Notes: generated by a model from the letters alone, not told the origin. 64,000 bases of DNA from Pseudactinotalea suaedae (GCF_009733815.1 NZ_WNXY01000003.1:62001-126000); one strand, 5' to 3'. Counted from the first letter of the stretch, positions 38,530 through 63,339 are shown. A program made the numbers and translations.

Positions 38530-39789
38530 TCAGGTGACCAGGCGCAGCAGCCGAACGCCGTGCGCCGGGATGGTCAGGTCGTTCACGGTGGCGGGTGTGC
38601 CGGTCCAGAGGTCGACGGCGGAGGCCGTCCGGATGTCCACGAGCGCCGGCAGGTCGATCACGGCGGGCGTCGTGCCGAGCCAGAAGGCGGCGACGTAGCG
38701 CGCCCCGGTCTCGGCGTCCTGGGCGGTCCAGATCCGGAGGTCGCCGTCACGCCGGATCTCGGCGCCGCCGGTCGAGCCGGAGAGGATCCGGAGCACGTCG
38801 GGGTTGGTGAGGAGGTCGAACGTGGCGTCGTCCGTCTCCGGCAGGTGGCCACCCATCATGAGCGGCGAGCGCCCGAGGACCCAGAGGCTCAGCAGCGTCC
38901 GCTGCTCGTCGGGCGTGAGCCGGGAGTCGCGGGGGTCACCGCGCTCGGCGCGGATGCCGATCCGCCCGAGCGGCAGCATGTCGGCGTCCGCCCAGCCGCC
39001 TGGCTGCTGCAGCGGCGCCCAGCGCGCGAGACGGTCGAACTGCTCGACGACGTCCTCCCAGCGGTCCCAGAGGTCGTCCGAGATCCGCCACATCGTGGCG
39101 TTCTGGCGCAGGTGGTCGAGGTGAGCCGGGTCGAGCCCGGTGCCGGGCGAGAGGCTGAGCTGGATGTCGCGGCCGCTGCGGCGGATCGCCTCGGCGTAGG
39201 CCGCGATCTCGCGCTCGTGGTACGGCGCCAGCATGTCGTCGGCCTTGATGAAGTCGACGCCCCAGCCCGCGAACGTGGCGAGCTGGGCGTCGTAGTACGC
39301 CTGCGCGCCGGGGTGGTCGTGGTTCAGCCCGTAGTTGTCGGGGTTCCAGGGACAGGTCGAGGACGTGTCCGCGATGTCGCGGGCGCTGAAGTCGGTACCC
39401 CTCACGGGAAGCTCCTGCTCGACCGCGATCTTGGGGATCCCGCGCATGATGTGGAGGCCGAACCTCAGCCCCAGGTCGTGCACACGGGCCGCGAGGGCCG
39501 TGAAGCCGGTGCCGTCGGCGGCTGAGGGGAAGCGGTTCGGCGCAGGCTGGTGGATGCCGAAGTCGTCGAGGAGCAGCGGCGCGTCGTCGTTGTAGCCGTG
39601 CGCGCGTGCGGTCGGGTCGTACCACTGGATGTCGACCACCACGGTGTCCCAGCCGAACGGCAGCAACCGCTCCGCCATCACCTCGGCGTTGGCGATCACC
39701 TCGGCCTCGGTGACGGTGGTGCCGAAGCAGTCCCAGGAGTTCCACCCCATCGGTGGTGTCGCGCTCACGTTCTCGGGTGGTGCGCTCAC
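38530..39789 (-). CDS. GH27 family alpha-galactosidase or beta-L-arabinopyranosidase
   Basis: A 419-aa clan GH-D enzyme. TPPMGWNSWDCFGTTVTEAE is the family opening, VVVDIQWYDP follows, and GVDFIKADDML carries the catalytic nucleophile Asp. A second conserved block is ISDDLWDRWEDV with the acid/base Asp. GGWADADMLPLG and RSPLMMGG complete the GH27 set. GTG start at 39789 overlaps the dehydrogenase stop (GTGA). In an operon with an arabinofuranosidase, the known GH27 activity on beta-L-arabinopyranosides is as plausible as galactose release. Cytoplasmic. Confidence 0.9.
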   Translation of the reverse strand: MSAPPENVSATPPMGWNSWDCFGTTVTEAEVIANAEVMAERLLPFGWDTVVVDIQWYDPTARAHGYNDDAPLLLDDFGIHQPAPNRFPSAADGTGFTALAARVHDLGLRFGLHIMRGIPKIAVEQELPVRGTDFSARDIADTSSTCPWNPDNYGLNHDHPGAQAYYDAQLATFAGWGVDFIKADDMLAPYHEREIAAYAEAIRRSGRDIQLSLSPGTGLDPAHLDHLRQNATMWRISDDLWDRWEDVVEQFDRLARWAPLQQPGGWADADMLPLGRIGIRAERGDPRDSRLTPDEQRTLLSLWVLGRSPLMMGGHLPETDDATFDLLTNPDVLRILSGSTGGAEIRRDGDLRIWTAQDAETGARYVAAFWLGTTPAVIDLPALVDIRTASAVDLWTGTPATVNDLTIPAHGVRLLRLVT

Positions 39790-40790
39790 GCGAGCCCGAT
39801 CACGGTCTTGAGCCCGGTGCGGGCCGTGGCGCGGGTGAAGGCACCGGCGACGTCGTCGAGCGGGGCGCGCTCGGTGACGACCGAGCGCACGTCGATCAGG
39901 CCCTGCTCGACCAGCCGGATCGAGCGCGGGTACATCTCCTTCATGCGGCGCACCATCGTGAAGGTCAGCCCCTTGCGGCGGGCGACGTGCGCCGGGAAGG
40001 AGGACCGTTCGTCGTCGGGGATCCCGGCGAGCACGACCCGCCCACCGGGTCGGACCGCGGTGACCGCGATGTCGATCGCGGTGTCGGTGCCGGCGATCTC
40101 CATGACGACGTCGGCGCCCAGGCCCCACTGCTTCCACGTCGCCGACTCCTGGGCCTCCTCGACGTCGAGCACGACGTCGGCGCCGTAGCGCGCCGCCGCT
40201 TCCCGGCGGTGCTCACGCGGCTCGACGGCGATGACCCGGCCCGCTCCTGCGGCCTTCGCGAGCTGGATGGCGAGCAGGCCGATCGGTCCGCACCCGACGA
40301 CGGCGATCGTGTCGCCGACCCTGCTGTGCGCGAGGTCCCAGGCGTGCAGCGCCACCCCGAGCGGCTCGAGCATCGCCCCGTCGGCGCCCGTGAGCCCGTC
40401 GGGCAGCGGGTGCAGCAGGTGGGTGGGCCAGGCGATCAGCTCGGCCATGCCGCCGTCGAGGGTGCTGTGCCCGGCGAACTGGATGCGGACGCAGAGGTTG
40501 CGGTGCCCGGCCTCGCACATCTCGCACCGGCCGCACGGGATGGCGGGATCGACCGCGACAGGGACGCCGTCGAGATCGCCCGAGGCGCCGACGCCCGCGA
40601 ACTCATGGCCGGGGATCGTGGGGCGGGTCAGCGTGGCGTCGCCGATGCCGCCCTCGCCGAACCAGTGCAGGTCGGACCCGCAGAGCCCGACGTCGGTCAC
40701 CCGGACCAGGGTGTGACCCTCAGGCACCTCTGGTTCAGGGGCCTCCTCGACCCGGACGTCTCCGACACCGTGCAACATCGCCACGCGCAT
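39786..40790 (-). CDS. Zinc-dependent medium-chain dehydrogenase (sugar/polyol type)
   Basis: A 334-aa alcohol dehydrogenase-like protein. The catalytic zinc site shows GLCGSDLHWFG and PGHEFAG. The structural zinc Cys cluster is PCGRCEMCEAGHRNLC, and the NAD site is AVVGCGPIGLLAIQLAKAAGA. It resembles threonine, sorbitol and galactitol dehydrogenases; with GH27 and GH51 downstream, oxidation of L-arabinose, arabinitol or galactose is likely. First gene of the operon, read from a promoter whose -10 lies 6 nt before the ATG. Confidence 0.88.
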   Translation of the reverse strand: MRVAMLHGVGDVRVEEAPEPEVPEGHTLVRVTDVGLCGSDLHWFGEGGIGDATLTRPTIPGHEFAGVGASGDLDGVPVAVDPAIPCGRCEMCEAGHRNLCVRIQFAGHSTLDGGMAELIAWPTHLLHPLPDGLTGADGAMLEPLGVALHAWDLAHSRVGDTIAVVGCGPIGLLAIQLAKAAGAGRVIAVEPREHRREAAARYGADVVLDVEEAQESATWKQWGLGADVVMEIAGTDTAIDIAVTAVRPGGRVVLAGIPDDERSSFPAHVARRKGLTFTMVRRMKEMYPRSIRLVEQGLIDVRSVVTERAPLDDVAGAFTRATARTGLKTVIGLA

Positions 40791-41632: not shown

Positions 41633-41657
41633 ACCCACGACCTCGAGGATGAGACCA

Positions 41658-44459
41658 GTGACTGCTGCGCCGCCCGTGCCCACGCCCACCATCGCCACGC
41701 TCAGCGCCGAGCTGCGCACCGACTCGCCGTTCGTCGCGACGCCGACGCCGCGGCTGTCCTGGACGGTCGCCACCGAGCAGGCGGGTTGGATCCAGACCTG
41801 GGCCGAGCTCCGCGCGGGCGAGCAGACCATCCGGCTGGAGGGTCGCGACAGCGTCCTGGTCGAGTGGCCGTTCCCGCCCCTTGGCCCCGGCGAGAGCGTC
41901 GAGGTGAGCGTCCGCGCCGGCTCGGCCGAGAACGCCGAGACCGGCTGGAGCGCGCCGCTGACGGTGCGTGCGGGCTTCCTCGGAGACGGCGGCTGGGTCG
42001 CCGAGCCCGTGCGCCTGGCGAGCCCGCCCGATCGCTCACGGCCTGCGCTGCTGCGCACCACGTTCGACGCCGCCGACGTGGTCAGCGCCACGCTGTACTG
42101 GACCGCCCTGGGCGTCGCCGAGATCCGGGTCAACGGCGAGCTGATCGACGGCGACGTGCTCTCCCCCGGCTGGTCGGCCTACCAGCACCGGCTGGTGCAC
42201 GAGACCGTTGACGTGACCGCGTCGGTCCGCGCGGGCACCAACGCGATCGCCGCGGAGATCGGCGGCGGCTGGTACACCGAGCGCTGGGGCTTCCGGGAGA
42301 ACGCGGCCGAGGTGTACGGCAGCCAGCCGGCGCTCGCGCTGCAGCTGCACGTGGTGCATGCCGACGGCACCACCACCGTGGTCACGACCGACGAGACCTG
42401 GCGCGGCCGCACCGGCCCGACCCTGGCGAGCAGCCTCTACCAGGGCGAGTCCTACGACGCTCGCGAGGCCGTGCCGGGATGGGACCAGCCCGACTTCGAC
42501 GACTCGGCCTGGACCGCCGTCGAGAGGGCCGACGACGCGTTCCTCACCCCCGAGGCCCGGATCGCTCCGCCGATCCGGCGGACCGAGGAGATCGCCGTCG
42601 TCGAGGTCATCCGCACCCCGGCCGGGGCGACGGTGCTCGACTTCGGTCAGAACCTCGTGGGCCGGTTGCGCCTGACCGCCCGCGGCGCGGCCGGGACGAC
42701 GATCACGCTCAAGCACGCCGAGGTGCTCGAGCACGGCGAGCTCGGCACCCGGCCGCTTCGTTCCGCCGCGGCGACCGACACCTGGACGCTCGCGGGGTCG
42801 GGTGAGGAGACCTGGGAGCCGCGGTTCACCTTCCACGGCTTCCGCTACGCCCAGATCGAGGGCTGGCCGGGCGAGCTCGACCCGAGCGACGTCGTCGCCG
42901 TCGTCCTCCACAACGACATGGACCGCACCGGAACCTTCAGCACGAGCCACCCGCTGCTGCAGCAGCTGCACGACAACGTCGTGTGGGGCATGCGCGGCAA
43001 CTTCCTGGCCGTGCCGACCGACTGCCCCCAGCGTGACGAGCGGCTCGGCTGGACCGGCGACATCGAGGTGTTCGGCCCCACCGCCAGCTCGCTCTACGAC
43101 GTGCGCGGGTTCCTCACCAGCTGGCTGCGCGACCTCGCCCTGGAGCAGGAAGCGGCCGACGGCGTGGTCCCGTTCGTGGTGCCCAACGTGCTGCAGCTCA
43201 GCGGCCGGGTCACGCCTGCGGCTGCGTGGAGCGACGCTGCCGCCATCGTCCCGTGGACCCTCTACGAGCGGTACGGCGACGTCGGGGTGCTGCGCGAGGC
43301 CTACCCCTCGATGCGCAGCTGGGTCGAGGTGCTGCTCGAGATCTCCGGCGGCACGGGGCTGTGGGAGGGCGGGTTCCAGTTCGGTGACTGGCTCGACCCG
43401 GCGGCTCCGCCCGATCGCCCCGCCGAGGCCACGACCTCGCCCGACGTCGTGGCCGGCGCCTACCTGGCGCTCTCGGCGCGGATCGTCGCCGACGCTGCCG
43501 CGCTCCTCGGTCACACCGAGGACGAGGCGACCTACCGCGCCGCCGCCGATCAGGCGCGCGAGGCGTGGTGCCGCGAGTACGTCACCCCGGCCGGCCGGAT
43601 GATGTCCGACGGCCAGACCGCGTACGCGATGGCCATCGCGTTCGATCTCGTGACCGACGCCGAGATGCGGCAGCGACTCGGTGATCGGCTCGCGGACCTC
43701 GTCCGCGAGGACGGCTACCGGATCGGCACCGGCTTCGTCGGTACGCCGATCGTGTGCGACGCCCTCACGGTCACCGGCCACCTGGACGCCGCGACCCGCC
43801 TGCTCCTGCAGACCGAGAACCCCTCCTGGCTGTACCCGGTGACGATGGGGGCCACCACGATCTGGGAGCGCTGGGACTCGATGCTGCCCGACGGCACGAT
43901 CAACCCGGGGCAGATGACGTCCTTCAACCACTACGCGCTCGGCGCCGTGGCGGACTGGATGCACCGGGTCGTGGCGGGGCTGGCGCCGGTCGAGCCGGGG
44001 TACCGGACGCTCCGGATCGGCAGCCGCCCGCTGGTCGGGATCGACGCGGCCGCGGCGTCGCTGGACACGCCCTACGGTCCCGCCCGCGTGAGCTGGGAGC
44101 GCGACGGCGACCGGGTCACCGTGAGCGCCCTGGTGCCGCCGAACACGACGGCGCAGGTCGACCTTCCGGGCGTGCAGCCCGGCGAGATCGGCTCGGGCGA
44201 GCACACCTGGGTGATCGCGGCGCCGGAGGCACCGGTTCCGGCGCGCCCGCTCACGGTGGACTCCCCGAGCGCCGCGATCATCGACGACCCCGAGGCCTAC
44301 GCGCTGGTGGCCGAGACGATCGGGCGCATCACGCCGTCGAACCTCGACGCCTTCCACCGCACGCGGTGGAGCGAGCGTGCGACGCTGCGCGACCGGGTGC
44401 GCTACGCCTCCAACGAGCTGGTCGAGGAGCTGAACCGGGTGCTGGCGACGCTGACCTGA
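41658..44459 (+). CDS. GH78 alpha-L-rhamnosidase, cytoplasmic
   Basis: A 933-aa multidomain glycosidase removing terminal L-rhamnose. N-terminal beta domains carry LYWTALGVAEIRVNGELID, GGGWYTERWGFRENA and NLVGRLRLTARG. The (alpha/alpha)6 catalytic domain has FLAVPTDCPQRDERLGWTGD with the catalytic acid region, FGDWLDPA, TIWERWDSM and MTSFNHYALGAVADWM. The C-terminal beta domain follows, with about 60 extra residues (LVAETIGRITPSNLDAFHR). The GTG at 41658 is favoured because GAGG at 41645-41648 abuts the alternative ATG at 41649. No signal peptide. It supplies rhamnose to the rha operon. Confidence 0.95.
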   Translation: MTAAPPVPTPTIATLSAELRTDSPFVATPTPRLSWTVATEQAGWIQTWAELRAGEQTIRLEGRDSVLVEWPFPPLGPGESVEVSVRAGSAENAETGWSAPLTVRAGFLGDGGWVAEPVRLASPPDRSRPALLRTTFDAADVVSATLYWTALGVAEIRVNGELIDGDVLSPGWSAYQHRLVHETVDVTASVRAGTNAIAAEIGGGWYTERWGFRENAAEVYGSQPALALQLHVVHADGTTTVVTTDETWRGRTGPTLASSLYQGESYDAREAVPGWDQPDFDDSAWTAVERADDAFLTPEARIAPPIRRTEEIAVVEVIRTPAGATVLDFGQNLVGRLRLTARGAAGTTITLKHAEVLEHGELGTRPLRSAAATDTWTLAGSGEETWEPRFTFHGFRYAQIEGWPGELDPSDVVAVVLHNDMDRTGTFSTSHPLLQQLHDNVVWGMRGNFLAVPTDCPQRDERLGWTGDIEVFGPTASSLYDVRGFLTSWLRDLALEQEAADGVVPFVVPNVLQLSGRVTPAAAWSDAAAIVPWTLYERYGDVGVLREAYPSMRSWVEVLLEISGGTGLWEGGFQFGDWLDPAAPPDRPAEATTSPDVVAGAYLALSARIVADAAALLGHTEDEATYRAAADQAREAWCREYVTPAGRMMSDGQTAYAMAIAFDLVTDAEMRQRLGDRLADLVREDGYRIGTGFVGTPIVCDALTVTGHLDAATRLLLQTENPSWLYPVTMGATTIWERWDSMLPDGTINPGQMTSFNHYALGAVADWMHRVVAGLAPVEPGYRTLRIGSRPLVGIDAAAASLDTPYGPARVSWERDGDRVTVSALVPPNTTAQVDLPGVQPGEIGSGEHTWVIAAPEAPVPARPLTVDSPSAAIIDDPEAYALVAETIGRITPSNLDAFHRTRWSERATLRDRVRYASNELVEELNRVLATLT

Positions 44460-44471
44460 TCGCCGCGCCGG

Positions 44472-45419
44472 TCAGGCGAGCAGCGCGCGGGCGGTGTTGG
44501 AGTCGGTGACGAGGACATCGATCCAGCCGCCGCGGGCTGCCGCACGGATCGCCTCGACCTTGCGCTCGCCACCGGCGACGCCGATCTTCCTCGGCACGGC
44601 ACGCAGCGTCTCGGCGTCGATCCCGAGGACGCGGTGGTGCAGGTCGCTGTCGACGAGCCGACCCTCGGCGTCGAAGAAGTTGAGGCAGACGTCACCGACG
44701 GCGCCGAGCCCGGCGAGCTCGTCGAGATCCGGCTGCGGGAGCGCGTTGCCCGAGGAGACGAGCAGCGGCGACGGCTGCACGCTGCCGATGCCGACCAGCA
44801 CGACGCTCAGATCGGACCAGGCCGCGACGACGTCGGCCACGTAGGGGTCCGCGAGCAGGGCGTCGCGCACCTGCTCGCTCGCGACGACTCCCGGCGCGGG
44901 GAAGTACATCGCCTCGCCGCCGGTGACCTGGGCGAGCCGGTCCGCCAGCCGGGTCGCCTGCACCTGCACCGATGCCGCGCCGACACCGCCGAGGATCTGC
45001 ACCACGCGCTCGGCCCCGCGGCTGGGACGAGGCGCCATCGCCTCGACGACCGCGAGCAGCGACGCCGACCACGAGGACAGCCCGACCCGCTCGGTCGGCA
45101 TCAGCGTGCTCTCGAGATACGCGGCGCCGGCCGCACCGATCGCGGCGAGCGAGGTGGGCTCGTCGGAGGTCGAGGAGCCGGCCACGACGACGTCGGTCAG
45201 TCCGAGCGCGGTGCGCACCTCTTCCTCGAGATCGGCGAACGAGCCCGGGGGCGCGACGACGACCGTCCGCACGATCCCCCGCGTGACCGCTTCCTTCAGC
45301 AGCCGCGAGACACGCGACTGCGAGACGTGCAACCGGTCCGCGATCTCGGGCTGGCGCAGCCCTTGCTCGTGGTACATCCGCGCGACCTTGACGAGCATCG
45401 ACAACCGGTCCTCGGGCAT
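44472..45419 (-). CDS. SorC/DeoR-type sugar-binding transcriptional regulator
   Basis: A 315-aa regulator. N-terminal helix-turn-helix: LVKVARMYHEQGLRQPEIAD, then RLHVSQSRVSRLLKEAVTRG. The C-terminal sugar-phosphate-binding domain has VVVAGSSTSDEPTSLAAIG, VQILGGVGAASVQVQATRLA, VLVGIGSV and the closing KIGVAGGERKVEAIRAAARG typical of the SorC family. A minus-strand GATAGT ends 8 nt before the ATG, so it may be leaderless. It is convergent with GH78 (12 nt). Likely inducer: a phosphorylated sugar, perhaps apulose-4-phosphate from the operon at 49.8-54.9 kb. Confidence 0.93.
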   Translation of the reverse strand: MPEDRLSMLVKVARMYHEQGLRQPEIADRLHVSQSRVSRLLKEAVTRGIVRTVVVAPPGSFADLEEEVRTALGLTDVVVAGSSTSDEPTSLAAIGAAGAAYLESTLMPTERVGLSSWSASLLAVVEAMAPRPSRGAERVVQILGGVGAASVQVQATRLADRLAQVTGGEAMYFPAPGVVASEQVRDALLADPYVADVVAAWSDLSVVLVGIGSVQPSPLLVSSGNALPQPDLDELAGLGAVGDVCLNFFDAEGRLVDSDLHHRVLGIDAETLRAVPRKIGVAGGERKVEAIRAAARGGWIDVLVTDSNTARALLA

Positions 45420-45538: not shown

Positions 45539-46484
45539 TCAGCGGCCGGGTGGCCGATAGAGCGCAGGCACGGGTCGGTAGCCGTTGACGACCTCGCGCG
45601 CGATCTGCTGCGTGATCTTGGTGAACACCCAGCCCTCCTCGGCGATCTCGTCCCAGTACACCCGCACGACCGAGTCACCGGGGTCCGCGCGGTACTTGCC
45701 GGCGCCGTCGAACTCCACGTGCAGCCACATGCGGGTGCCGTTCCTGCGGAAACGCCATGCGACGTCGGTGAAGACAGGTCCGCGGCTTGTTCGGACCTCC
45801 TTCTGCAGGACGGGTATGGGCATCCCGCGACTGATCGCGATCCAGCGCACCACCGACTCCGGCGCCGACTCCGCCAGCGGGTCGGCTGCGGTGATGACGG
45901 CGCGCGCCTGAACGGCGCCACGGGACCGCGGCTCGATCCGAGCAAGGCGTGGAGCCCGCAGCTCGGCGGCGCGGGCCTCGACATCGGCGTGCGGTTCGGC
46001 ACGCTGGGGTCGGACCACGGACCACGGACCGCATGCCGCTGTCCGCGATCACCAGGGCGTCACGCGGGTGGAGCGACCGCGCACAGTCCACGATGGTGCG
46101 TTCGAGACCGGTCACGCGGGACGGACCGACCTGCATGACGTCGGCGTCGTCGAGCGAGCACGCGCGGCGTCGGACGTCGCGCGGCAGCCCTGCTCGCGGG
46201 TTGGAGGGCTGGATCACCGTGGTGACGGAGGGGATGCGCCACACCGCGAAGTCGTGCGCCAGCGCCGCCGATTCCTCCGCCAGTGCGGCGTTCACCAGCT
46301 GTCGTTGTGCGGCCAGAGCGGTCGCCAGGGCTCGCTGGCGGTCCTGCTCCCACCGCTCTCCCACGGGCGACTCCGCGTACGCACCCCGCCGGACGCGGGT
46401 CCAGACACCCTCACGAAGCAGCTGATCGGCAACAGGACGGCTGACATCTCGACGCAGGTAGACCTCGGGAAGTCGCGCAGCCAT
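45539..46484 (-). pseudogene. AbiEi/DUF559-like gene with a frameshift at a 7-bp tandem repeat
   Basis: From ATG 46484 (AARLPEVYLRRDVSRPVADQ) the frame codes for a protein with an AbiEi-antitoxin-like winged-helix start and a central region ending ALVIADSGMRSVVR. There the frame slips: the natural continuation (PQRAEPHADVEARAAELRAP) lies in another frame down to 45539. That part holds the DUF559-type nuclease core TDVAWRF and LHVEFDGAGKY, a PD-(D/E)XK-like D...E-x-D-x4-K pattern. The break coincides with tandem CGGACCA units at 46011-46030. Removing one 7-nt unit restores a single frame of about 312 codons, so the gene is either recently broken, phase-variable, or affected by a sequencing error. 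Confidence 0.85.
46011..46030. repeat. CGGACCA tandem repeat (2.9 copies) causing the frameshift
   Basis: Two full CGGACCA units and a third lacking its last base. The unit length is not a multiple of three, and one unit too many exactly accounts for the frame change. Confidence 0.9.
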
Positions 46485-46571: not shown

Positions 46572-47408
46572 TCAGCCCTTCACGGCGCCGCTGGTCATGC
46601 CGGCCACGATCTGCCGGTTGAAGAAGATGTACATCACCAGGGGCGGGATCGTGATCAGCAGGATGTCGGTGAACAGCAGGTTCCACTGGTTCAGCGTCTG
46701 GCTCTGGAAGTTGTAGAGCGTCAGCTGCACGGTCGCGTTCTCGTCGCCGGGGAGGAAGTAGAGCGGACCGGTGAAGTCGTTGAACACGTTGACCGCCTGC
46801 ACCACGACGACCGTGACCATGGCGGGTCGCAGCAGCGGTGCCACCACCCCGAAGAAGACCCGGAGCGGGCCGGCGCCGTCGATGGTGGCCGCCTCGTCGA
46901 GCTCCTTGGGGATCGTCGAGACGAAGGCACGGAACAGCAGGACGCAGAAGGACAGCCCGAAGGTCGCCTGGATGAAGATCATCCCGGGGATCGTCTTGAA
47001 GATCCCCAGCGCCTGCATGACCCAGATCGTCGGGACGACGGCGGGCGGCACGATCAGGCCCGCCAGCACCAGGAAGTTGACCGTGGGGTTCCAGCGCGAG
47101 CGCCGCCGCTGCAGCACGTACCCGACCATGGCGGCGAAGATGACCATGAGCGTGACGCTCAGCACCGTGATGACGGTGCTGTTGATGAACGCCCGCACCA
47201 CCAGACCGTTCCGGATGGTCAGCACCTCGGTGATGTTCTCCCAGAGCGCCCACTCGGTCGGCAGCGAGAAGCCGAACAGCGAAGCCTCGGCGGGTGTCTT
47301 GCCCGCCATCAGGAAGATGAACGCGAACGGCACGATGAACACGATCACCGACAGCAGGATCGCGATCGTCCCGACGACGACGGAGCGGATCTTCGCCCTG
47401 CGCCTCAT
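46572..47408 (-). CDS. Carbohydrate ABC transporter permease (MalG type), importer 2
   Basis: A 278-aa permease with six membrane segments and the EAA loop LDEAATIDGAGPLRVFFGVVAP. The tail IFFNRQIVAGMTSGAVKG is typical of MalG proteins. The ATG at 47408 overlaps the MalF-type stop (ATGA). Last gene of importer 2; a short hairpin follows. Confidence 0.95.
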   Translation of the reverse strand: MRRRAKIRSVVVGTIAILLSVIVFIVPFAFIFLMAGKTPAEASLFGFSLPTEWALWENITEVLTIRNGLVVRAFINSTVITVLSVTLMVIFAAMVGYVLQRRRSRWNPTVNFLVLAGLIVPPAVVPTIWVMQALGIFKTIPGMIFIQATFGLSFCVLLFRAFVSTIPKELDEAATIDGAGPLRVFFGVVAPLLRPAMVTVVVVQAVNVFNDFTGPLYFLPGDENATVQLTLYNFQSQTLNQWNLLFTDILLITIPPLVMYIFFNRQIVAGMTSGAVKG

Positions 47409-48307
47409 CGCTCCACCTCCCGCCGGTTGAGCAGGTACGAGACCGGGATGACGATCGCCGTCACGACGATGAAGAGCACGACGTTGCCGGCGGTCGAGAG
47501 GCCGTAGAAGCCGGCCTGGTACTGCTTGTAGATGACCGACGCGATCACGTCGCTGGTGAACCCGGGGCCGCCGCGGGTCGTCGCCCAGATCAGGTCGAAC
47601 GAGCGCAGCCCGCCGATCAGCGAGAGCAGCACCACGGTGGCGGTCGCCGGCCGGACCAGCGGCAGCGTGATGTGCCGGAAGTTCTTCCAACCTCCTGCGC
47701 CGTCCACCTTGGCCGCCTCGTAGTACTCGGTGGGGATCGCGGCCAGACCCGCGATGTAGATCAGGGTGGCGATGCCGACGCCCTTCCAGACGTCGATCAG
47801 GGCCACCGAGAACAACGCCCACTGCGGGTCGGTGAGCCAGGCGGGCCCCGTGATCCCGAGCGTGGCGAGCGAGCTGTTGATCAGCCCGTCGAAGGGGTCC
47901 ATCAGCACCTTGAAGGTGATGCCGACCCCGATCGCCGAGACGAGCACGGGGAAGAACACCACCGAGCGCAGGTAGCCACGCGCGATCAGCTGGCTCGTGA
48001 GCAGCAGCGCGAGGGCAAGTCCGAGCACCACCTTGAAGCCGGAGGTGACGAACCCGTAGATGAAGGTGTTGATGAACCCGGTGCGCAGCTGGGGCTCGCT
48101 GAAGAACGTGATGAAGTTCTGCATCCCCGTGAACTCCACGTCCTGCAGCGACCACCGCGTGAACGCGAAGTAGAACGACGCGAAGGTCGGGATCGCGAAC
48201 AGCACGACGTACAGCAGCCCGGCGGGCAGGTAGAACCACGTGGGGTAGATGCTCCTGACGGAGCGTCGCTTCTTCGTGACACCGGGATCGATGACGGCCT
48301 GAGCCAT
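47405..48307 (-). CDS. Carbohydrate ABC transporter permease (MalF type), importer 2
   Basis: A 300-aa permease. A charged N-terminal tail (DPGVTKKRRSVRSIYPTW) precedes six membrane segments; the EAA loop is YEAAKVDGAGGWKNFRHITLP and TTRGGPGFTSDVI is the conserved loop near the C-terminus. The start at 48307 lies 39 nt after a hairpin that separates it from the binding-protein gene. Confidence 0.95.
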   Translation of the reverse strand: MAQAVIDPGVTKKRRSVRSIYPTWFYLPAGLLYVVLFAIPTFASFYFAFTRWSLQDVEFTGMQNFITFFSEPQLRTGFINTFIYGFVTSGFKVVLGLALALLLTSQLIARGYLRSVVFFPVLVSAIGVGITFKVLMDPFDGLINSSLATLGITGPAWLTDPQWALFSVALIDVWKGVGIATLIYIAGLAAIPTEYYEAAKVDGAGGWKNFRHITLPLVRPATATVVLLSLIGGLRSFDLIWATTRGGPGFTSDVIASVIYKQYQAGFYGLSTAGNVVLFIVVTAIVIPVSYLLNRREVER

Positions 48308-48388: not shown

Positions 48389-49699
48389 TCACCAGCCGTC
48401 GAGACCGAGCTGCTGCGCCTGCTTGATGACGTCCTCGTCGTAGAGGGCCGCGCCCTCCTCAGCGGTCGAGATGCCGGAACCGACCTGGACCGTGATGTTC
48501 TCCAGGTTCGGGCCCTTGATCGGCGACACGAACTCCAGCGCCGGGTTGGCGAGCTCGTTGTCCACCCAGACCTGCAGGTCCTGCGTGGCCTGCGGGACAT
48601 CCGCGGGAAGCTCGCACAGGCTGGTGGCGAACGGGCCGGCGGGGACGTTCAGCTCGACCTGCAGGCGGCAGCCCTCGGGCGAGTTCACGAACTCCACCAG
48701 CAGCTTGGCCGCCTCCAGCTCCTCACCCTCGGTCGTGCTGGGGATGTAGACGGCGTTGGGCAGCCAGATCGTGGCGCGGGTGTCGTCCTCCTCCTGTGCC
48801 GGGAGCGGGAAGAAGCCGACGTCACCGATGTTGTCCGGGTAGTTCTGCGAGATGGTGGAGACGCCACCGCTGAGGATCGGGTAGTGCGCACCCTCGCCCG
48901 TGGCGACCATCCGCAGACCGTCGTCGAAGAGCGCCGAGGCGAAGTCCTCGTTGAAGTAGCCGCCCTCGTACGCCTCCTGCTGGTTGAGGAAGCTCTGCAG
49001 CGCCGGCTGCTCGGCGTAGCGGCGCTCGTTGGCGGTGTACCCCTCGGCCCAGTCCGGGTCCTGCGCCGCGACGTTGCCGAAGTCGCCCAGCACGAACAGC
49101 TGGCTGGTCCAGGTGTCGCCGTAGGTCTGGATGATCGCGGTGTGCCCGGCGGCCTTGATCGCATCGTTGTTGGCCATGAAGTCGGCCCACGTCGTGGGGA
49201 CCTCGAGGCCGAGCTCCTCGTACATCGGGATGTTGTAGAGGATGCCGCCTGCCTGCGACGTGCCGTTCGGTGCGCCGTAGAGGCCGTTCTCGGTGGACAC
49301 GACCGGGATGAAGGGCTCGATGAGCGAGTCCGTCCACTCCTGGTCGCTCAGGTCCACCAGGTTCTGGTCGGGGTTGATCGCCTGCAGCAGCGAGCCGGTG
49401 TTGTAGGTGAACACATCCTCCATCTCGCCGGTGGCGAGCTTGGTCTTGACCAGGTTGTCGCCCTCGGTGCCGCCGGGCTGGGAGTTCATCGTGACCGTGA
49501 TCTCGGGATGCTCCTCGTTGAAGGCCGCGATCAGGGCCTCGCCCCACGCCGGACCCGTGCCGCCCGTCTGCACCAGCAGCGTGATCTCGACGTTCTCGCC
49601 GTCACCGGAACCGCCGCCCCCGCCGGAGCACGCCGCCACTGCCGCCAGCGCGGTAGCAGCAAACCCCGCCGCAAGGACGCGTCGCTTGTGAACTGCCAT
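48389..49699 (-). CDS. Extracellular sugar-binding lipoprotein, importer 2
   Basis: A 436-aa family 1 solute-binding protein. Signal peptide MAVHKRRVLAAGFAATALAA with lipobox AVAAC (Cys24) and a glycine/serine-rich linker. The mature part contains ITLLVQTGGTGPAWGEALIA, FNEEHPEITVTMNSQPGG, GLYGAPNGTSQAGGILYNIP and GEGAHYPILSGGVSTISQ. It lies directly downstream of the split-transketolase operon on the same strand, so the imported sugar may feed that pathway. Its own promoter and LacI-type operator are upstream. Confidence 0.94.
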   Translation of the reverse strand: MAVHKRRVLAAGFAATALAAVAACSGGGGGSGDGENVEITLLVQTGGTGPAWGEALIAAFNEEHPEITVTMNSQPGGTEGDNLVKTKLATGEMEDVFTYNTGSLLQAINPDQNLVDLSDQEWTDSLIEPFIPVVSTENGLYGAPNGTSQAGGILYNIPMYEELGLEVPTTWADFMANNDAIKAAGHTAIIQTYGDTWTSQLFVLGDFGNVAAQDPDWAEGYTANERRYAEQPALQSFLNQQEAYEGGYFNEDFASALFDDGLRMVATGEGAHYPILSGGVSTISQNYPDNIGDVGFFPLPAQEEDDTRATIWLPNAVYIPSTTEGEELEAAKLLVEFVNSPEGCRLQVELNVPAGPFATSLCELPADVPQATQDLQVWVDNELANPALEFVSPIKGPNLENITVQVGSGISTAEEGAALYDEDVIKQAQQLGLDGW

Positions 49700-49830: not shown

Positions 49831-50649
49831 TCAGCTCATGAACATGCCGCCGTCGACGTTGATCGCCTGCCCGGTGATGTAGCTGCCGGCGTCGGAGGCC
49901 AGGAACAGCAGCAGGTTGGCCACGTCGGACACCGCCGCGGGTCGCCGCAGCGGGATGTCGGCGATCCACTCGGCGATCAGCTCTCCGGGCTGGTAGTCGC
50001 CGAGCCGGCGGCCCCACTCGGCGTCGTTGTACTGCCACATCTCGGTCTCGACGATGCCGGGGCAGTAGCAGTTGACCCGGATCCCGTCCGGCGCCAGCTC
50101 CTTGGCGAGCGACTGCGACATCCCGATGACGCCCATCTTGGACGCCGCGTAGTGCGGCGTGTAGATGAAGCCCTGCCGCCCCTGCCCGGAGCTCGCGTTC
50201 AGGACGCTGCCACCACCGGCGGCACGCAGCAGCGGCACCGCCTCCCGGGTGGCGACGAACGCGGCCGTGGTGTTGACGGCGAGCACACGCGCGAAGTCGG
50301 CCGTGCTGAGCTCGTCGATCTCGGAGATCGTGATGATGCCCGCGTTGTTGACCAGCACGTCGAGCGCGCCCCAGCGCTCACGCACCCCCTCGAAGACGGC
50401 CGCCACCTGGGCGTCGTCGGTGAGATCGACGACGGCGGAGCTCACCTCGTGCCCCCGGCTCGCCATGTCCGTCGCGGCGGCGACCACGGCCTCGTCGCGG
50501 TCCAGCAGCAGCACGGCAGCACCGCTCGAGGCGAACGCCTCCGCGATCCCGAGCCCGATGCCGCGCGCCGCCCCCGTCACCACGACCCGCCGGCCGGTGA
50601 AGTGACCGGCGAAGATCGGGGACGCGACGACCGCGCTGCCGTCGGTCAC
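49831..50649 (-). CDS. Short-chain dehydrogenase/reductase
   Basis: A 272-aa NAD(P)-dependent [48 protein letters not shown], active-site Ser in [10 protein letters not shown] and catalytic [10 protein letters not shown]; the C-terminus [16 protein letters not shown] is typical. GTG start at 50649 overlaps the isomerase stop (GTGA). It is last in the transketolase operon; it probably oxidises or reduces a sugar or polyol feeding that pathway (for example apiitol or apiose), which is inference. Confidence 0.9.
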
Positions 50650-51635
50650 GGCTGCGACTCGTAGCCCTTGAACAGCGCCCGCTGCACGAGCGCGAGCGCA
50701 CCGAGGGCGTCGTGCTGCTCCTGAGCGGCGCGCACGCCTTCCACGTCGAGCTCGTCGAGGCCACGCTCGACGGCCTTGAGGAAGTCGATCGCGTGGTCGG
50801 CGGCCCTCACCGAGTCCTCCCGGAACGGGAACTGGTCGAGCTGCCAGACGCCCTCCCAGCCGTTCTTGCGCAGCGTGTAGAAGAACTCGAAGAGCTCGAT
50901 CGGGTGCACGGTGCCGGCGACCATGTCGTCGTCCCAGCCCCGCATGTTGTCGTTGACGTCCATGCCGAACAGGCGCCCGTAGTCGATCGCGAGCTGGGCG
51001 GAGTCGGCGGGCGACTCGCCGCCGAACAGCGCGTGCCCGAAGTCGAGCAGGATGCCGACGTTCGGCAGGCCGATCTTCTCGATGCCGAGCAGCGTGCGGG
51101 ACACCGAGTCGAAGCTCATGTGGACGCGCGGCTCGCGCGGCTTGTACTCGATGACGAACTTGAGGTCGGGGTTCTCCGACGCGAGCTGGCCCACGCCGTC
51201 GAGCGAGGCCTTCCAGAGTGCGCCGTGGTCCACCTGGAACGGGTAGTCCCAACCGTCCTGTCCGGGCCACAGCTTGACGTACTCGGCGCCGAAGTGCCGC
51301 ACCACGTCGGCCGCCTCGGTGACCAGCTCGTGGGTGAGCCGACGCACACCCGGGTCGGGGTTGGTGAAGGACCCCTTCATGAAGGTGCGGGTGTAGATCT
51401 CGGGCGTGATGCCGATGGCGCTGAGCCCGGCACGCTCGAGCGCCTCGCCGACCTGCTCGTTGCTGAACTCCCCGCCCCAGAACGGGTAGTTGAGGTCGAC
51501 GACCGACAGGTCGCGCACCTTGCCCGCGAGCTCGATGGCCTCGAGGATCGTCATCGGGTCGCCGTAGCCATCGGTGGCGTACCGGTCCACGTAGGTGGCG
51601 AAATGCCAGATGCCGGCTCCGTAGCGCTGTGCCAT
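50646..51635 (-). CDS. Xylose-isomerase-like TIM barrel, D-apiose isomerase candidate
   Basis: A 329-aa sugar isomerase. Metal-binding and active-site blocks are seen in [74 protein letters not shown] and [14 protein letters not shown] 51635 is chosen over the GTG at 51638 because AAGGAG is 7 nt away; it overlaps the kinase stop by 1 nt. The set isomerase + FGGY kinase + split transketolase equals the known D-apiose route, in which D-apiose is converted to apulose. Rhamnose- or lyxose-type isomerase activity is the main alternative. Confidence 0.85.
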
Positions 51636-53101
51636 CACTGCTCTCCTTGGTGTCGTGCGTCTCGTGACGTGGTGCGAGCCAGCCCGACGGCGTGGTGCCA
51701 GGCCGCGCGGGCGGATCGGGTGTGCTCGGGGTCGCCCTGGGGTGTGAAGCGGGTGGTGCTCCGGTCGCGCGTGGGAGCCAGACCCGCCGAGACGGCGGCG
51801 AGCTCGGCCGCGCCCAGCACGGACAGCGCGGCGGTCTCGGGGCGCAGCACCTCGCGCTCGGAGACGTCCGCCTGGAGCTGCATCAGCGCGTCGTCGCGCG
51901 CCGGTGCGCCGTCGGCGTAGACCGAGCGCACCACGCCGGCCGCGTCAGCCGCGGCGAGCACGTCCTCCACCTGGTGGACGATCGACTCCATACCGGCGCG
52001 GGCGAGCGCTGCCGCATCGGTGCCCAGGTCGAAACCGTGCAGCACGGCGCGCGCGGAGCCGTCCCAGTAGGGAGCTCCCAGCCCGGCGACCGCGGGCACC
52101 AGCACGATCCCGTGGTCGGCGGGCGCGGTGCGGGCCAGCGCCGCGAGCTCGCCGACCTCGCGCCCGAGCAGCCGTGACAGCCAGGCCATGGTGGCGCCGG
52201 TGGCCAGGATGTTGCCCTCGACGGCGCGCTGCGGGGCCGCGCCGCCGAGCTGCCAGGCGATCGTGCCGACCAGGCCGGCGGGCACGTCGTCGGCCCCGCT
52301 CAGACCCATGACCGACGACCCGGTGCCGTAGGTGACCTTGACCGCGCCCGGCTCGCGCACACCGTGGCCGTACAGCGCGGCGTGGGAGTCGCCGAGGACG
52401 CCATGGAACCGCCAGCCGTGGAGGCCCTGCGCAGGCCGGCTGACCTCGTCGGACGCCGTCACCTGCGGCAGCACGGCCGCCGGGATGTCGAACAGCTCGA
52501 GGAGCTCGGGCGACCAGTCGCCGGTGCCGAGATCGAGCAGCTGCGTGCGCGAGGCGTTGCCGGTCTCGATGCGGTGCTCACCGGTGAGCGCGAACAGCAG
52601 CCAGGAGTCGACCGTGCCGACGGCGAGCTCGCCCCGCCGTGACCGACGGCGGTCCGGGTCGACCTGGTCGAGCAGCCAGGCGATCTTGACGGCGGAGAAC
52701 ATCGGGTCGAGCGGAAGCCCGGTGACCTCCCGGACCCGTGCGGCGTGCGGGGCCAAGCGGTCCACCAGCTCGACCGTGCGCCGGTCCTGCCAGCCGAGCA
52801 TCGGGCCCACCGGCGTGCCGGTGCCACGGTCCCAGACCACGGCGGACTCGCGCTGGCTGCTCAGCCCGAGCGCGACGACCCGGTCCTCGAGCCCCTCGCT
52901 CGCCTCGAGCACGGCGGTGCGCACGCTGTCGAGGATCTCGACAGCGTCCTGCTCGACCCAGCCCGGCCGGGGATGATGCTGCCCGACCGCGACGCCGACC
53001 TCGCGCACGAGGTGCCCGGCACGGTCGACGCAGGCGACCTTGGTCGAGCTGGTGCCCTGGTCGATCGCGACGACCAGCGGACCGGCGTCAGCGCCGCTCA
53101 T
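51635..53101 (-). CDS. FGGY-family ketose kinase, apulose kinase candidate
   Basis: A 488-aa carbohydrate kinase. ATPase motif [37 protein letters not shown]; sugar-site region [20 protein letters not shown]; the FGGY signature area is replaced by [20 protein letters not shown]-terminal [20 protein letters not shown]. It is closest in look to glycerol/xylulose kinases. Its neighbours (isomerase downstream, transketolase subunits upstream, ATGA overlap) point to a ketopentose such as D-apulose as substrate, phosphorylated at C4. Confidence 0.9.
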
Positions 53102-54051
53102 GCCCGCAGTGCCTCGTTCGCCACACGGACGATGTTCTCAGAGGTGAGGCCGAAGTGCTCGAGCAGCATGTCGTTGCTGCCGGTCGGGGCGAACTCGGTG
53201 AGCCCGAGCGGCACGACCCGCACGCCGAGGCCCTCGCGCGCGACCAGCTGTGCGACGGCGGCGCCGAGGCCGCCGGCGATGTTCGCCTCCTCGGCGACGA
53301 TCACGGCGCGGGTGCCGCGGGCGGCGTCGAGGATCGTCGCCTGGTCGAGCGGCGCGATCCAGGCGGCGTTGAGCACACGGGCCGAGACGCCGTCGTCGGA
53401 CAGGCGGCGCGCGGCCTCGAGAGCGCGCGAGACGAGCGTGCCGGTCGCCACGATCGCGACGTCGTCGCCGCCCCGGGCGACGTCGATGCGGCCGCGCACG
53501 AGGACCTCGCCCTCGGTCGTGACGTCGGGCACCTTGTGACGTCCGATCCGGATGTAGGTGGGGCGCGGCTCGGCGGCGAGCATCCGCAGCGCCTGCCGGG
53601 TCTGCCGCCGGTCGGCCGGGACCACGATGTCCAGACCGGGCAGCGCCCGCATCCAGGACAGGTCCTCGACCGAGTGGTGGGTCGGTCCGAGCTCGCCGTA
53701 GGCCATCCCCGGGCTCATGCCGCAGAGGATGACCGGGTGCTGGGAGTAGGCGACGTCGGCCTTGACCTGCTCGGTCGCGCGACCGGTCAGGAACGGGCCG
53801 GCCCCGCACACGAACGGGATCAGCCCGGCCGCAGCCAGGCCGGCGCCGACACCGACCATGTTCTGCTCGGCGATCCCGACGTTGATCAACCGGTCACCGA
53901 ACTCCTCGCGGAACGCGCCGAGGTTGGAGGATCCGACCGAGTCGTTGCAGACGGCGACGATGCGCTCGTCGGCGCGGGCCAGCACAGCCAGCTCCTCGGC
54001 GAACGCGGTCCGGTTGTCGTACCCGGTCGCGGTGGGGGCATCGGTCCTCAT
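53098..54051 (-). CDS. Transketolase, C-terminal subunit (apulose-4-phosphate transketolase subunit B candidate)
   Basis: A 317-aa protein with the pyrimidine-binding and C-terminal domains of transketolase: TAFAEELAVLARADERIVAV, RLINVGIAEQNMVGVGAGLA with the catalytic Glu of IAEQ, SHHSVEDLSWMRALPGL-type loop (THHSVEDLSWMRALPGLDIV), and VIVAEEANIAGGLGAAVAQL. ATG 54051 overlaps the stop of the N-terminal subunit (ATGA). Split transketolases of this type act on specialised sugar phosphates rather than in the central pentose phosphate pathway. Confidence 0.93.
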   Translation of the reverse strand: MRTDAPTATGYDNRTAFAEELAVLARADERIVAVCNDSVGSSNLGAFREEFGDRLINVGIAEQNMVGVGAGLAAAGLIPFVCGAGPFLTGRATEQVKADVAYSQHPVILCGMSPGMAYGELGPTHHSVEDLSWMRALPGLDIVVPADRRQTRQALRMLAAEPRPTYIRIGRHKVPDVTTEGEVLVRGRIDVARGGDDVAIVATGTLVSRALEAARRLSDDGVSARVLNAAWIAPLDQATILDAARGTRAVIVAEEANIAGGLGAAVAQLVAREGLGVRVVPLGLTEFAPTGSNDMLLEHFGLTSENIVRVANEALRA

Positions 54052-54938
54052 GAGCCCTGCTCCCCCAGCTCGGCGAGCGCGGCGGTGACCTGCTCGGCCG
54101 TGGGCACCTTGTGGTGCCACTCGACGCGGTCCTCCATGAACGAGACCCCCTTGCCCTTGATCGTGTTGGCGACGACGGCGACCGGGCGGCCCGTCGTCGA
54201 CGGCGCGAACGCGCCGAGCAGCTGGGTGACGTCGTGGCCATCGATCTCACGGACCTCGCAGCCGAACGCCGCCAGCCGCTCGGCGAGCGGGTCCAGGGCG
54301 TTGGTGTCCTCGGTGCGGGCACCCTGCTGCAGCCGGTTCCGGTCGACCACCAGGGTGAGGTTGCCGAGGCGGTAGTGGGCGGCCGACATGATCGCCTCCC
54401 AGTTCGAGCCCTCCTGCATCTCACCGTCTCCGGTGACCACGTACACGCGCCGGTCCAGACCCTGCAGCCGCAGCCCGAGGGCCTCACCGACCGCGACCGG
54501 CAGCCCGTGCCCGAGCGGACCGGTGTTGGTCTCCACACCGGGGACCTTGGTGCGGTTCGGGTGCCCGTTGAGGGCCGACATCGGCGCCATGAAGGTGGCG
54601 AGCTCGGAGGTCGGGAAGTACCCGCTGTGCGCGAGCACGGAGTACAGCGCGGCAGCGCAGTGGCCCTTGGACAGGATGAACCGGTCGCGGTCGCGCCGGG
54701 TCGGGTCGGCGGGGTCGATCTCCAGCACGCCGAGGTACAGCGTGGTGAGGATGTCCGTCACCGACAGGTCACCACCGATGTGGCCGGCCCGAGCGGCGTC
54801 GATGGTCCGCACCACGGACCGCCGCACGCCTTGCGCGGCGTCGTGGATGAGCCGCGCGCGCTCGCGCTCGTCGGCCGCGGCCACGGCGGCCCGCTGCTGC
54901 CGCCAGAGGGCGACCTGCTCCAGGTCTGTGCTCAACAT
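54048..54938 (-). CDS. Transketolase, N-terminal subunit (apulose-4-phosphate transketolase subunit A candidate)
   Basis: A 296-aa thiamine-diphosphate-binding subunit. Motifs: ARAGHIGGDLSVTDILTTLY, RFILSKGHCAAALYSVLAHS, TGPLGHGLPVAVGEALGLRL and the ThDP motif VTGDGEMQEGSNWEAIMSAA ending in LTLVVDRNRLQQG. I prefer ATG 54938, preceded by GCGGGGG, over ATG 54974, which lies inside an operator-like sequence. First gene of a five-gene operon with the C-terminal subunit, FGGY kinase, isomerase and SDR. With glyceraldehyde-3-phosphate as acceptor it would yield dihydroxyacetone phosphate and xylulose-5-phosphate in the apiose route. Confidence 0.93.
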   Translation of the reverse strand: MLSTDLEQVALWRQQRAAVAAADERERARLIHDAAQGVRRSVVRTIDAARAGHIGGDLSVTDILTTLYLGVLEIDPADPTRRDRDRFILSKGHCAAALYSVLAHSGYFPTSELATFMAPMSALNGHPNRTKVPGVETNTGPLGHGLPVAVGEALGLRLQGLDRRVYVVTGDGEMQEGSNWEAIMSAAHYRLGNLTLVVDRNRLQQGARTEDTNALDPLAERLAAFGCEVREIDGHDVTQLLGAFAPSTTGRPVAVVANTIKGKGVSFMEDRVEWHHKVPTAEQVTAALAELGEQGS

Positions 54939-54970
54939 CGAGACCCCCGCTCGTGCGTCACTCTGCGTCA

Positions 54971-54989
54971 GCATATCTATTCCATATCG
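54971..54989. promoter_or_regulatory. Operator-like repeat before the transketolase operon
   Basis: On the minus strand GATATGGAATAGATATGC contains a direct repeat of GATATG separated by GAATA. It lies about 35 nt upstream of the chosen start. The SorC regulator at 44.5 kb is a possible binder; GAATAnnTATGC recurs upstream of importer 3. Confidence 0.4.
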
Positions 54990-55055: not shown

Positions 55056-58025
<2,970 letters not shown>

Positions 58026-62336: not shown

Positions 62337-63320
62337 TCAGGAGGAGGCCGCGAAGGCGCGGATCTTGGCGAACATGTCCTCGAAGAGGTACCGGGTGTCG
62401 AAGGTCTCGACGACGTCGACCGTGCGACCTGCGAGGCCCAGCGCGAGCGCGCCGTCGTCGGTGAAGCGCGGAGCGGGTCGCCGGCGGATCACCCCGCCAC
62501 CGGCGTTCAGGACGAGCCCGACGGCGGGTGAGTCGCCGAGCGAACGCCGCTCGATGGCCGACGGGTTCCAGCGGTCGTTCCACTCGATGAGCTGGCGGAC
62601 CAGGTAGGCGCCGAGCTCGCCCGCCTCGCCGATCTTCTCCTGCAGCTCGTGATAGCCGACCGAGCACATCCGGTACGTGGACTCGGGCACCTGGATCACC
62701 CGCACACCGGAGCCCAGCACGACGTTGGCGGCCGCGATGTCGTTGGAGAGGTTGAACTCGATACCGGCATCACCGCCGGTCCGGCCGAGGACGCCGTCGT
62801 AGGGCGGCCCGCCGATCCAGATCACCGTGAGGTCGCGCTCCACGAGGCGCGGCTCGAGCAGGAGCGCCGAGGCGACGGTGCTGAGCGGCCCGAGGACGAG
62901 CACGCTGAGCGGGGCGTCCTCGGACATCGCCTCCTCGATGATCAGGCGGGCTCCCTCGCAGTCGATCGGCGTCGCCTCGTCGGGGATCCACGTCTCCGCG
63001 CCGTCCACGACCCGCGTGGTGGTGTCCCCCAGCAGAGCGAGGAGCCGGTCGATCTCGGCCCGGCTGTCCGCGAGGCTCGTGGTGCTGCGACGCAGACCGA
63101 AGTGGGCCGCCACGACGCCTCGCACGTCCAGCGTCGGCGACAGCAGGGCGTGCACGATCGCGAACTGGTCGTCGGCCTCGTTGGCGGCATCGGTGTCGAG
63201 GACGACGCGGTGCCGCGGCGGAGGCGCCGCGTTGGGCTGGTCCTGCACGGTCGGCGGGTTCAGGCTCGAGGTCTGCCGGGCCCGGTCGAGGGCGTCGAGG
63301 GCGTCACGGTGCGAGGTCAT
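62337..63320 (-). CDS. Nucleoside-hydrolase-like protein (IUNH superfamily, variant group)
   Basis: A 327-aa protein. The N-terminal calcium-site motif reads VVLDTDAANEADDQFAIVHA, a variant of the DTDxxxDDA motif of purine/pyrimidine nucleoside hydrolases; LSVLVLGPLSTVASALLLEP, VIWIGGPPYDG and IEFNLSNDIAAANVVL are also family regions. The NEADDQF form marks a subgroup whose substrate may be a ribosylated or other glycosylated compound rather than inosine/uridine. ATG 63320 is chosen; the frame could begin three codons earlier with TTG. It lies upstream of importer 3 on the same strand, 78 nt from its -35. Confidence 0.87.
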   Translation of the reverse strand: MTSHRDALDALDRARQTSSLNPPTVQDQPNAAPPPRHRVVLDTDAANEADDQFAIVHALLSPTLDVRGVVAAHFGLRRSTTSLADSRAEIDRLLALLGDTTTRVVDGAETWIPDEATPIDCEGARLIIEEAMSEDAPLSVLVLGPLSTVASALLLEPRLVERDLTVIWIGGPPYDGVLGRTGGDAGIEFNLSNDIAAANVVLGSGVRVIQVPESTYRMCSVGYHELQEKIGEAGELGAYLVRQLIEWNDRWNPSAIERRSLGDSPAVGLVLNAGGGVIRRRPAPRFTDDGALALGLAGRTVDVVETFDTRYLFEDMFAKIRAFAASS

Positions 63321-63339
63321 GCCAGCCAAGCGTAGACCT

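Follow-up and report, generated by a model that had tools for sequence, protein, structure and literature searches.

Which substrate is served by a run of five overlapping genes in the soil-type actinobacterium Pseudactinotalea suaedae, and what part does the short-chain dehydrogenase/reductase (SDR) among them play? The genes lie in a window of 64,000 nucleotides (GCF_009733815.1 NZ_WNXY01000003.1:62001-126000; the window is the whole stretch analysed, and positions are counted within it). A sequence-only reading had taken them for an operon joined by overlaps of 1-4 nt and matching the transketolase-type route of D-apiose catabolism. Apiose is a branched sugar of the plant cell wall; in the pectin rhamnogalacturonan II it bears the borate cross-link, and the pectins of duckweed and seagrass contain it too. 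It is suggested here that the five genes probably form an operon for D-apiose catabolism of the transketolase type, to which a redox branch has been added. The D-apiose pathway itself is known, and the window holds a good actinobacterial member of it; what is new is the tie between the SDR and a wider, isomerase-free form of the pathway, together with the unusual pairing of this SDR with the isomerase ApsI.

Five open reading frames were found, all on the minus strand:

54048..54938, minus: split transketolase, thiamine-diphosphate (N-terminal) subunit, AptA-like, here TkA (Transketolase_N 3e-42; GDG motif at residue 170)
53098..54051, minus: split transketolase, pyrimidine-binding/C-terminal subunit, AptB-like, here TkB (Transket_pyr 5e-40, Transketolase_C 3e-30; catalytic Glu in IAEQN)
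51635..53101, minus: FGGY kinase, predicted D-apulose kinase, AplK-like (GlpK profile score, pocket residues, tree)
50646..51635, minus: predicted D-apiose isomerase, ApsI-like TIM barrel (3KTC match, metal-ligand motifs)
49831..50649, minus: SDR of the SDR2 clade defined below, predicted NAD-dependent apiitol/apiose oxidoreductase (ECSF_RS02675 match, tree, Asp50, YAASK)

Neighbouring frames overlap by 4 nt, save at the kinase/isomerase junction, where the overlap is 1 nt with the ATG start of the isomerase. Each gene carries its own set of Pfam domains (in the order above: Transketolase_N; Transket_pyr and Transketolase_C; FGGY_N/C; AP_endonuc_2; adh_short). The order TkA-TkB-kinase-isomerase is kept across many other genomes and is therefore not due to chance. 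Coordinates, domains and conserved order thus bear out the operon as it had been described.

The four core enzymes

Reactions are assigned here by homology, by residues and by the genes nearby, with the published pathway (MetaCyc PWY-8089; ApsI, AplK and AptA/AptB of Pectobacterium) as their basis. ApsI would convert D-apiose to D-apulose, the GlpK-derived FGGY kinase would phosphorylate D-apulose to D-apulose 4-phosphate, and AptA/AptB would pass a ketol unit on to glyceraldehyde 3-phosphate, with dihydroxyacetone phosphate and xylulose 5-phosphate as products. The window operon likewise unites the isomerase, the two-subunit transketolase and a GlpK-like FGGY kinase; it differs in its additional SDR and in an adjoining importer of the CUT1 rather than the CUT2 type.

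The likely start of the isomerase is the ATG at 51635, shortly after an AAGGAG ribosome site, with a GTG at 51638 as the alternative. Its nearest solved relative is PDB 3KTC (62.5% identity, 200/320 aligned residues, 4.6e-137, 460 bits), and no xylose isomerase scores above 71 bits. Assignment to another clade, which would have spoken against the sequence-only reading, was not found, as the enzyme does not fall among the xylose or rhamnose isomerases. The metal ligands of xylose isomerase, acidic residues and histidines, are kept and align, including those of LDQFPF, as would be expected of an ApsI-type isomerase. A genome scan recovered 359 relatives, many with the same operon. Neighbourhoods were counted at 80 loci kept from these, and in most of them the split transketolase and the kinase adjoin the isomerase. 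Of 396 genomes from the window organism's order, 25 have the isomerase.

The kinase was less straightforward. Its top profile is that of glycerol kinase, at 402 bits against a curated GlpK cutoff of 590, and it scores beneath the XylB cutoff as well. A separate, canonical GlpK is encoded in the genome (L123; 53.6% identical to E. coli GlpK), and the window kinase is 38% identical to E. coli AplK. In E. coli GlpK numbering it retains R83, E84 and D245 and is changed at three positions (Y135M, Q246S and F270S) at which the genome's own GlpK retains Y, Q and F. These positions read M, S, S in every kinase sampled from actinobacterial apiose clusters. L, S, S is found in E. coli AplK, in Klebsiella and in the kinases at the ApsI loci of Devosia, Rhizobium and Sphingomonas, while other rhizobial cluster kinases again show M, S, S. 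Caballeronia and one myxobacterial copy (Y, S, S) depart from this, as do the marine copies. Such a widened pocket may suit a branched pentulose better than glycerol. Kinship to apiose enzymes is indicated, in that the kinase groups in the tree with those of actinobacterial apiose clusters and has an AplK-like pocket, but the tree does not set all apiose-cluster kinases apart from GlpK; that its nearest relatives would be glycerol kinases had not been foreseen.

Both transketolase subunits are related to those of known apiose clusters. TkA is 46% identical to AptA of E. coli SE15 and 70% to a Streptomyces apiose-cluster subunit, and for TkB the values are 37% (AptB) and 62%; the Streptomyces copy of the operon is surrounded by pectinesterase, GH28, arabinofuranosidase and GH95 genes. 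TkA/TkB is the only split transketolase of the genome, and since a separate full-length transketolase is encoded on another contig, the pair is not the housekeeping enzyme. The comparisons of isomerase and split transketolase support the proposed match to the transketolase-type route, as does the clustering of the genes in an overlapping operon that is kept in many genomes; those of the kinase point the same way less cleanly.

It could be supposed that the four core enzymes act on some other small or branched sugar. The assignment to D-apiose is made by homology, and close isomerases occur on Croceibacterium and Pantoea plasmids at loci with no AptAB nearby. This is made quite improbable by the identity to 3KTC at the level given above, by the dozens of loci, in actinobacteria and alphaproteobacteria, that combine isomerase, split transketolase and altered GlpK-like kinase, by the kinship to an E. 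coli gene set linked to growth on apiose (PMC13001218) and by the pectin-degrading neighbours.

The SDR and its clade

We use SDR2 for the clade that contains E. coli ECSF_RS02675 and the window SDR, and SDR1 for the partner SDR. In the apiose cluster of E. coli SE15 an FGGY kinase, AptA and AptB are encoded together with two SDRs, a SorC-type regulator and a CUT2 importer. Clusters of this ST131 type, which have aptA, aptB and aplK, lack apsI; strains that carry them grow on D-apiose and K-12 does not, and it has been proposed that the two oxidoreductases stand in for the isomerase (PMC13001218, 2026).

The window SDR, which most likely starts with GTG at 50649, is 53-54% identical to ECSF_RS02675. 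When the latter was used to search the genome, the window SDR scored 280 bits and the next SDR 107, and the tree places the window SDR inside the SDR2 clade with support of 88/86. Among plasmid matches to SDR2 there is a gap in identity from 48% down to 39%, so that the clade is set apart from other SDRs. A generic FabG-like enzyme was considered for the window SDR and rejected, as the E. coli apiose SDR favours it by 173 bits. The SDR had been put forward as a new entry step to the pathway, possibly by oxidation of apiitol. Since the apiose clusters of E. coli and rhizobia hold an orthologue, the SDR is no newcomer to such clusters, while the oxidation of apiitol remains plausible.

Like the cluster of Escherichia (ST131, ST14; PMC13001218), the window has an orthologous SDR2, an AplK-like kinase, AptA/AptB and a SorC-type regulator. 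It differs in having ApsI and no SDR1, where E. coli has SDR1 and SDR2, no ApsI and a CUT2 importer. No SDR1 match lies within the operon, and an SDR1 orthologue was not found in the genome, in which the best match has 41% identity and 149 bits, compared with 58% for a true SDR1 in G246. The latter is a genome of the window organism's own family in which SDR1 and SDR2 are both present and ApsI is absent throughout. ApsI with SDR2 but without SDR1 is an unusual combination.

SDR1 and SDR2 with the kinase and AptAB, and without ApsI, recur on a Klebsiella plasmid and in Agrobacterium, several Rhizobium, Neorhizobium, Sinorhizobium, Shinella and G246. The rhizobial and Agrobacterium plasmid clusters (e.g. 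L106, L109, L113, L116) share the SDR2 clade, AptAB, the kinase and the SorC-type regulator with the window; unlike it they are without ApsI, their SDR2 is without the NAD-type Asp discussed below, and ribB is often, and tpiA sometimes, nearby. These and other rhizobial clusters are annotated in generic terms only, but have the look of ApsI-free apiose clusters. In Caballeronia, SDR2 is paired with a GolD/DthD-type SDR in place of SDR1. An AptA-like subunit was present at 19 of the 20 distinct SDR2 loci inspected. SDR2 was also found in 11 of 48 ApsI genomes searched whole, and it is rare among relatives of the window organism (3/396 genomes of its order, 1/395 in a sample of its class). In Pararhizobium A13 (L115) the SDR1 and SDR2 pair is accompanied by a remote FGGY kinase (29%), and AptA and AptB have no match; the pair may therefore also feed another route.

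Cofactor and role of the SDR

In SDRs an Asp closing the second strand is the usual mark of NAD. The window SDR has Asp50 at the end of beta-2 and YAASK at 167, and nearly all SDR1 proteins carry the Asp. It is missing from proteobacterial SDR2, the glycine motif of which often has Arg or Lys; these traits together point to NADP(H). The pattern of cofactors in the proteobacterial pair resembles that of an NADPH xylose reductase with an NAD xylitol dehydrogenase, and this likeness suggests that proteobacterial SDR2 may reduce apiose to apiitol and SDR1 may act as the apiitol dehydrogenase. In the isomerase-less clusters of E. coli, Klebsiella and rhizobia the two SDRs would most likely replace the isomerase by way of apiose, apiitol and apulose.

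In the window ApsI leaves no need for a reductase, and an orthologue of SDR1 was not found, so that NAD-linked oxidation of apiitol is a sensible role for the SDR, though one that we propose only tentatively. Apiitol, or substrates containing it, could then also enter the pathway. With similar reserve, at something short of an even chance, it is possible that SDR1 with SDR2 is a widespread isomerase-free entry for apiose, and that this lineage kept its SDR2 beside ApsI and turned it to the NAD-linked oxidation of apiitol.

Two other roles in sugar oxidation or reduction were considered. One is that both routes are kept, ApsI and a complete redox bypass; a distant SDR encoded elsewhere would then serve in place of SDR1, and the operon SDR would act as apiose reductase. 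The clade is usually paired with SDR1, and Caballeronia illustrates the use of another SDR as partner. The low score of the best SDR1 match, its location outside the operon and an NAD-type Asp that suits oxidation more than reduction make this unlikely. The other is that the SDR converts D-apiose to apionolactone and opens an oxidative route beside the transketolase route. Its profile matches include SDRs near glucose 1-dehydrogenase models; the apiose dehydrogenase ApsD is not known to be an SDR, and the E. coli cluster that shares the SDR2 clade has other enzymes leading only through apulose phosphate. We regard this role as very doubtful, though no search aimed at apionate genes was made.

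Several observations weigh against the interpretation of the operon as an apiose operon with a redox branch, or against parts of it. 3KTC, which we take to be the characterised D-apiose isomerase ApsI of Pectobacterium atrosepticum, is titled no more than 'Xylose isomerase' in the PDB. The kinase tree puts GlpK within the set of apiose-cluster kinases, so that the clade is not clean and the deeper split from GlpK is not resolved. The importer by the operon is of the CUT1 type, and those of many relatives are CUT2. The second-strand Asp is found in the actinobacterial SDR2 proteins (window, Pseudactinotalea terrae and G246), including that of G246, which has SDR1 as well; the NAD signature is therefore a trait of the actinobacterial branch, and the Asp was rejected as a mark of SDR1 loss. 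Finally, ApsI occurs with SDR1 and/or SDR2 in marine alphaproteobacteria and some rhizobia, and so simple replacement of ApsI by SDRs is not the whole story and strict mutual exclusion was rejected. ApsI, SDR1, SDR2 and AptAB are all present in the marine alphaproteobacteria L041, L073, L079, L081 and L091, one of them labelled Pelagibacteraceae. Seagrass pectin, in which apiose is abundant (PMC8815203), is a possible source of the sugar for these bacteria.

Neighbouring genes and wider bearing

The operon belongs to a co-directional run from 63.3 kb to 44.5 kb, made up in order of a nucleoside-hydrolase-like gene, a CUT1 importer, an aldo-keto reductase, a GH2 gene, the five-gene operon, a second CUT1 importer and, after a gap of 1.15 kb, a SorC-type regulator. 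The neighbours that bear on the argument are:

62337..63329, minus: nucleoside-hydrolase-like protein, co-directional, candidate apioside hydrolase (IU_nuc_hydro 4e-16)
55056..58007, minus: GH2 beta-galactosidase-like enzyme just upstream of the operon (GH2/Bgal domains)
48389..49699, minus: CUT1 solute-binding protein (SBP_bac_1; 49-54% homologues within 10 kb of ApsI at three Devosia loci)
47405..48307, minus: CUT1 permease A (65-66% to permeases adjoining ApsI in Devosia L027, L074)
46572..47408, minus: CUT1 permease B (4-nt overlap with permease A; 60-62% to Devosia homologues)
44472..45419, minus: SorC/DeoR-type sugar-binding regulator (Sugar-bind 3e-61; 39% to the E. coli apiose-cluster regulator)
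41649..44459, plus: GH78 alpha-L-rhamnosidase (Bac_rhamnosid domains)
38530-40137: alpha-galactosidase
36992-38500: arabinofuranosidase C-terminal domain

The SDR gene is placed between the isomerase and the CUT1 genes, and Devosia ApsI loci have related CUT1 genes without SDR2. The SDR might accordingly serve the cargo of this importer and have nothing to do with apiose. Its translational coupling to ApsI by the 4-nt overlap, and the company that its clade keeps with AptAB in E. coli, Klebsiella, rhizobia and G246, all with CUT2-type importers, make this most improbable. The SorC-type regulator and the CUT1 importer are probably in the same regulon as the apiose operon; a homologue of the regulator is adjacent to ApsI at 20 of the 80 loci. 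Pseudactinotalea terrae KACC 16542 (L012) has the same operon order, five enzymes 80-95% identical to those of the window, the same CUT1 genes and the GH2 gene, which is found at no other of the 80 ApsI loci, but has more DNA between importer and regulator. Two overlapping frames at 45539-46484 (minus), between permease B and the regulator, resemble one frameshifted gene.

The rhamnosidase, arabinofuranosidase and galactosidase that had been noted nearby are all present, with GH2 as a further such enzyme. GH78 lies within 10 kb of ApsI at 13 of the 80 loci, and a PF13204 apiosidase-family protein is encoded on another contig (345 bits). This protein and the GH78 and nucleoside-hydrolase-like neighbours support a plant-glycan context without proving rhamnogalacturonan II as the source, and the link of the operon to that pectin is circumstantial. 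About 20 kb from GH78, an aldolase-SDR fusion (20105-22141) and a second xylose-isomerase-like barrel (22364-23101, 27%), both minus, resemble an L-rhamnose pathway.

Proteins of the nucleoside-hydrolase fold occur within 10 kb of ApsI at 11 of the 80 loci (L014, L016, L019, L020, L023, L034, L036, L048, L053, L063, L064), directly downstream of it in three Devosia, and also at L009:10002-11456. Since apiofuranose resembles ribofuranose, these neighbours may be a new kind of apioside hydrolase.

The use of apiose by bacteria without apsI, including pandemic E. coli ST131, is in print only as a hypothesis (PMC13001218). The window presents one of the two candidate SDRs apart from its partner and beside a normal isomerase, and because of this natural separation the roles of both could be tested with three purified proteins. 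If the window SDR does oxidise apiitol, it would make apiitol a growth substrate.

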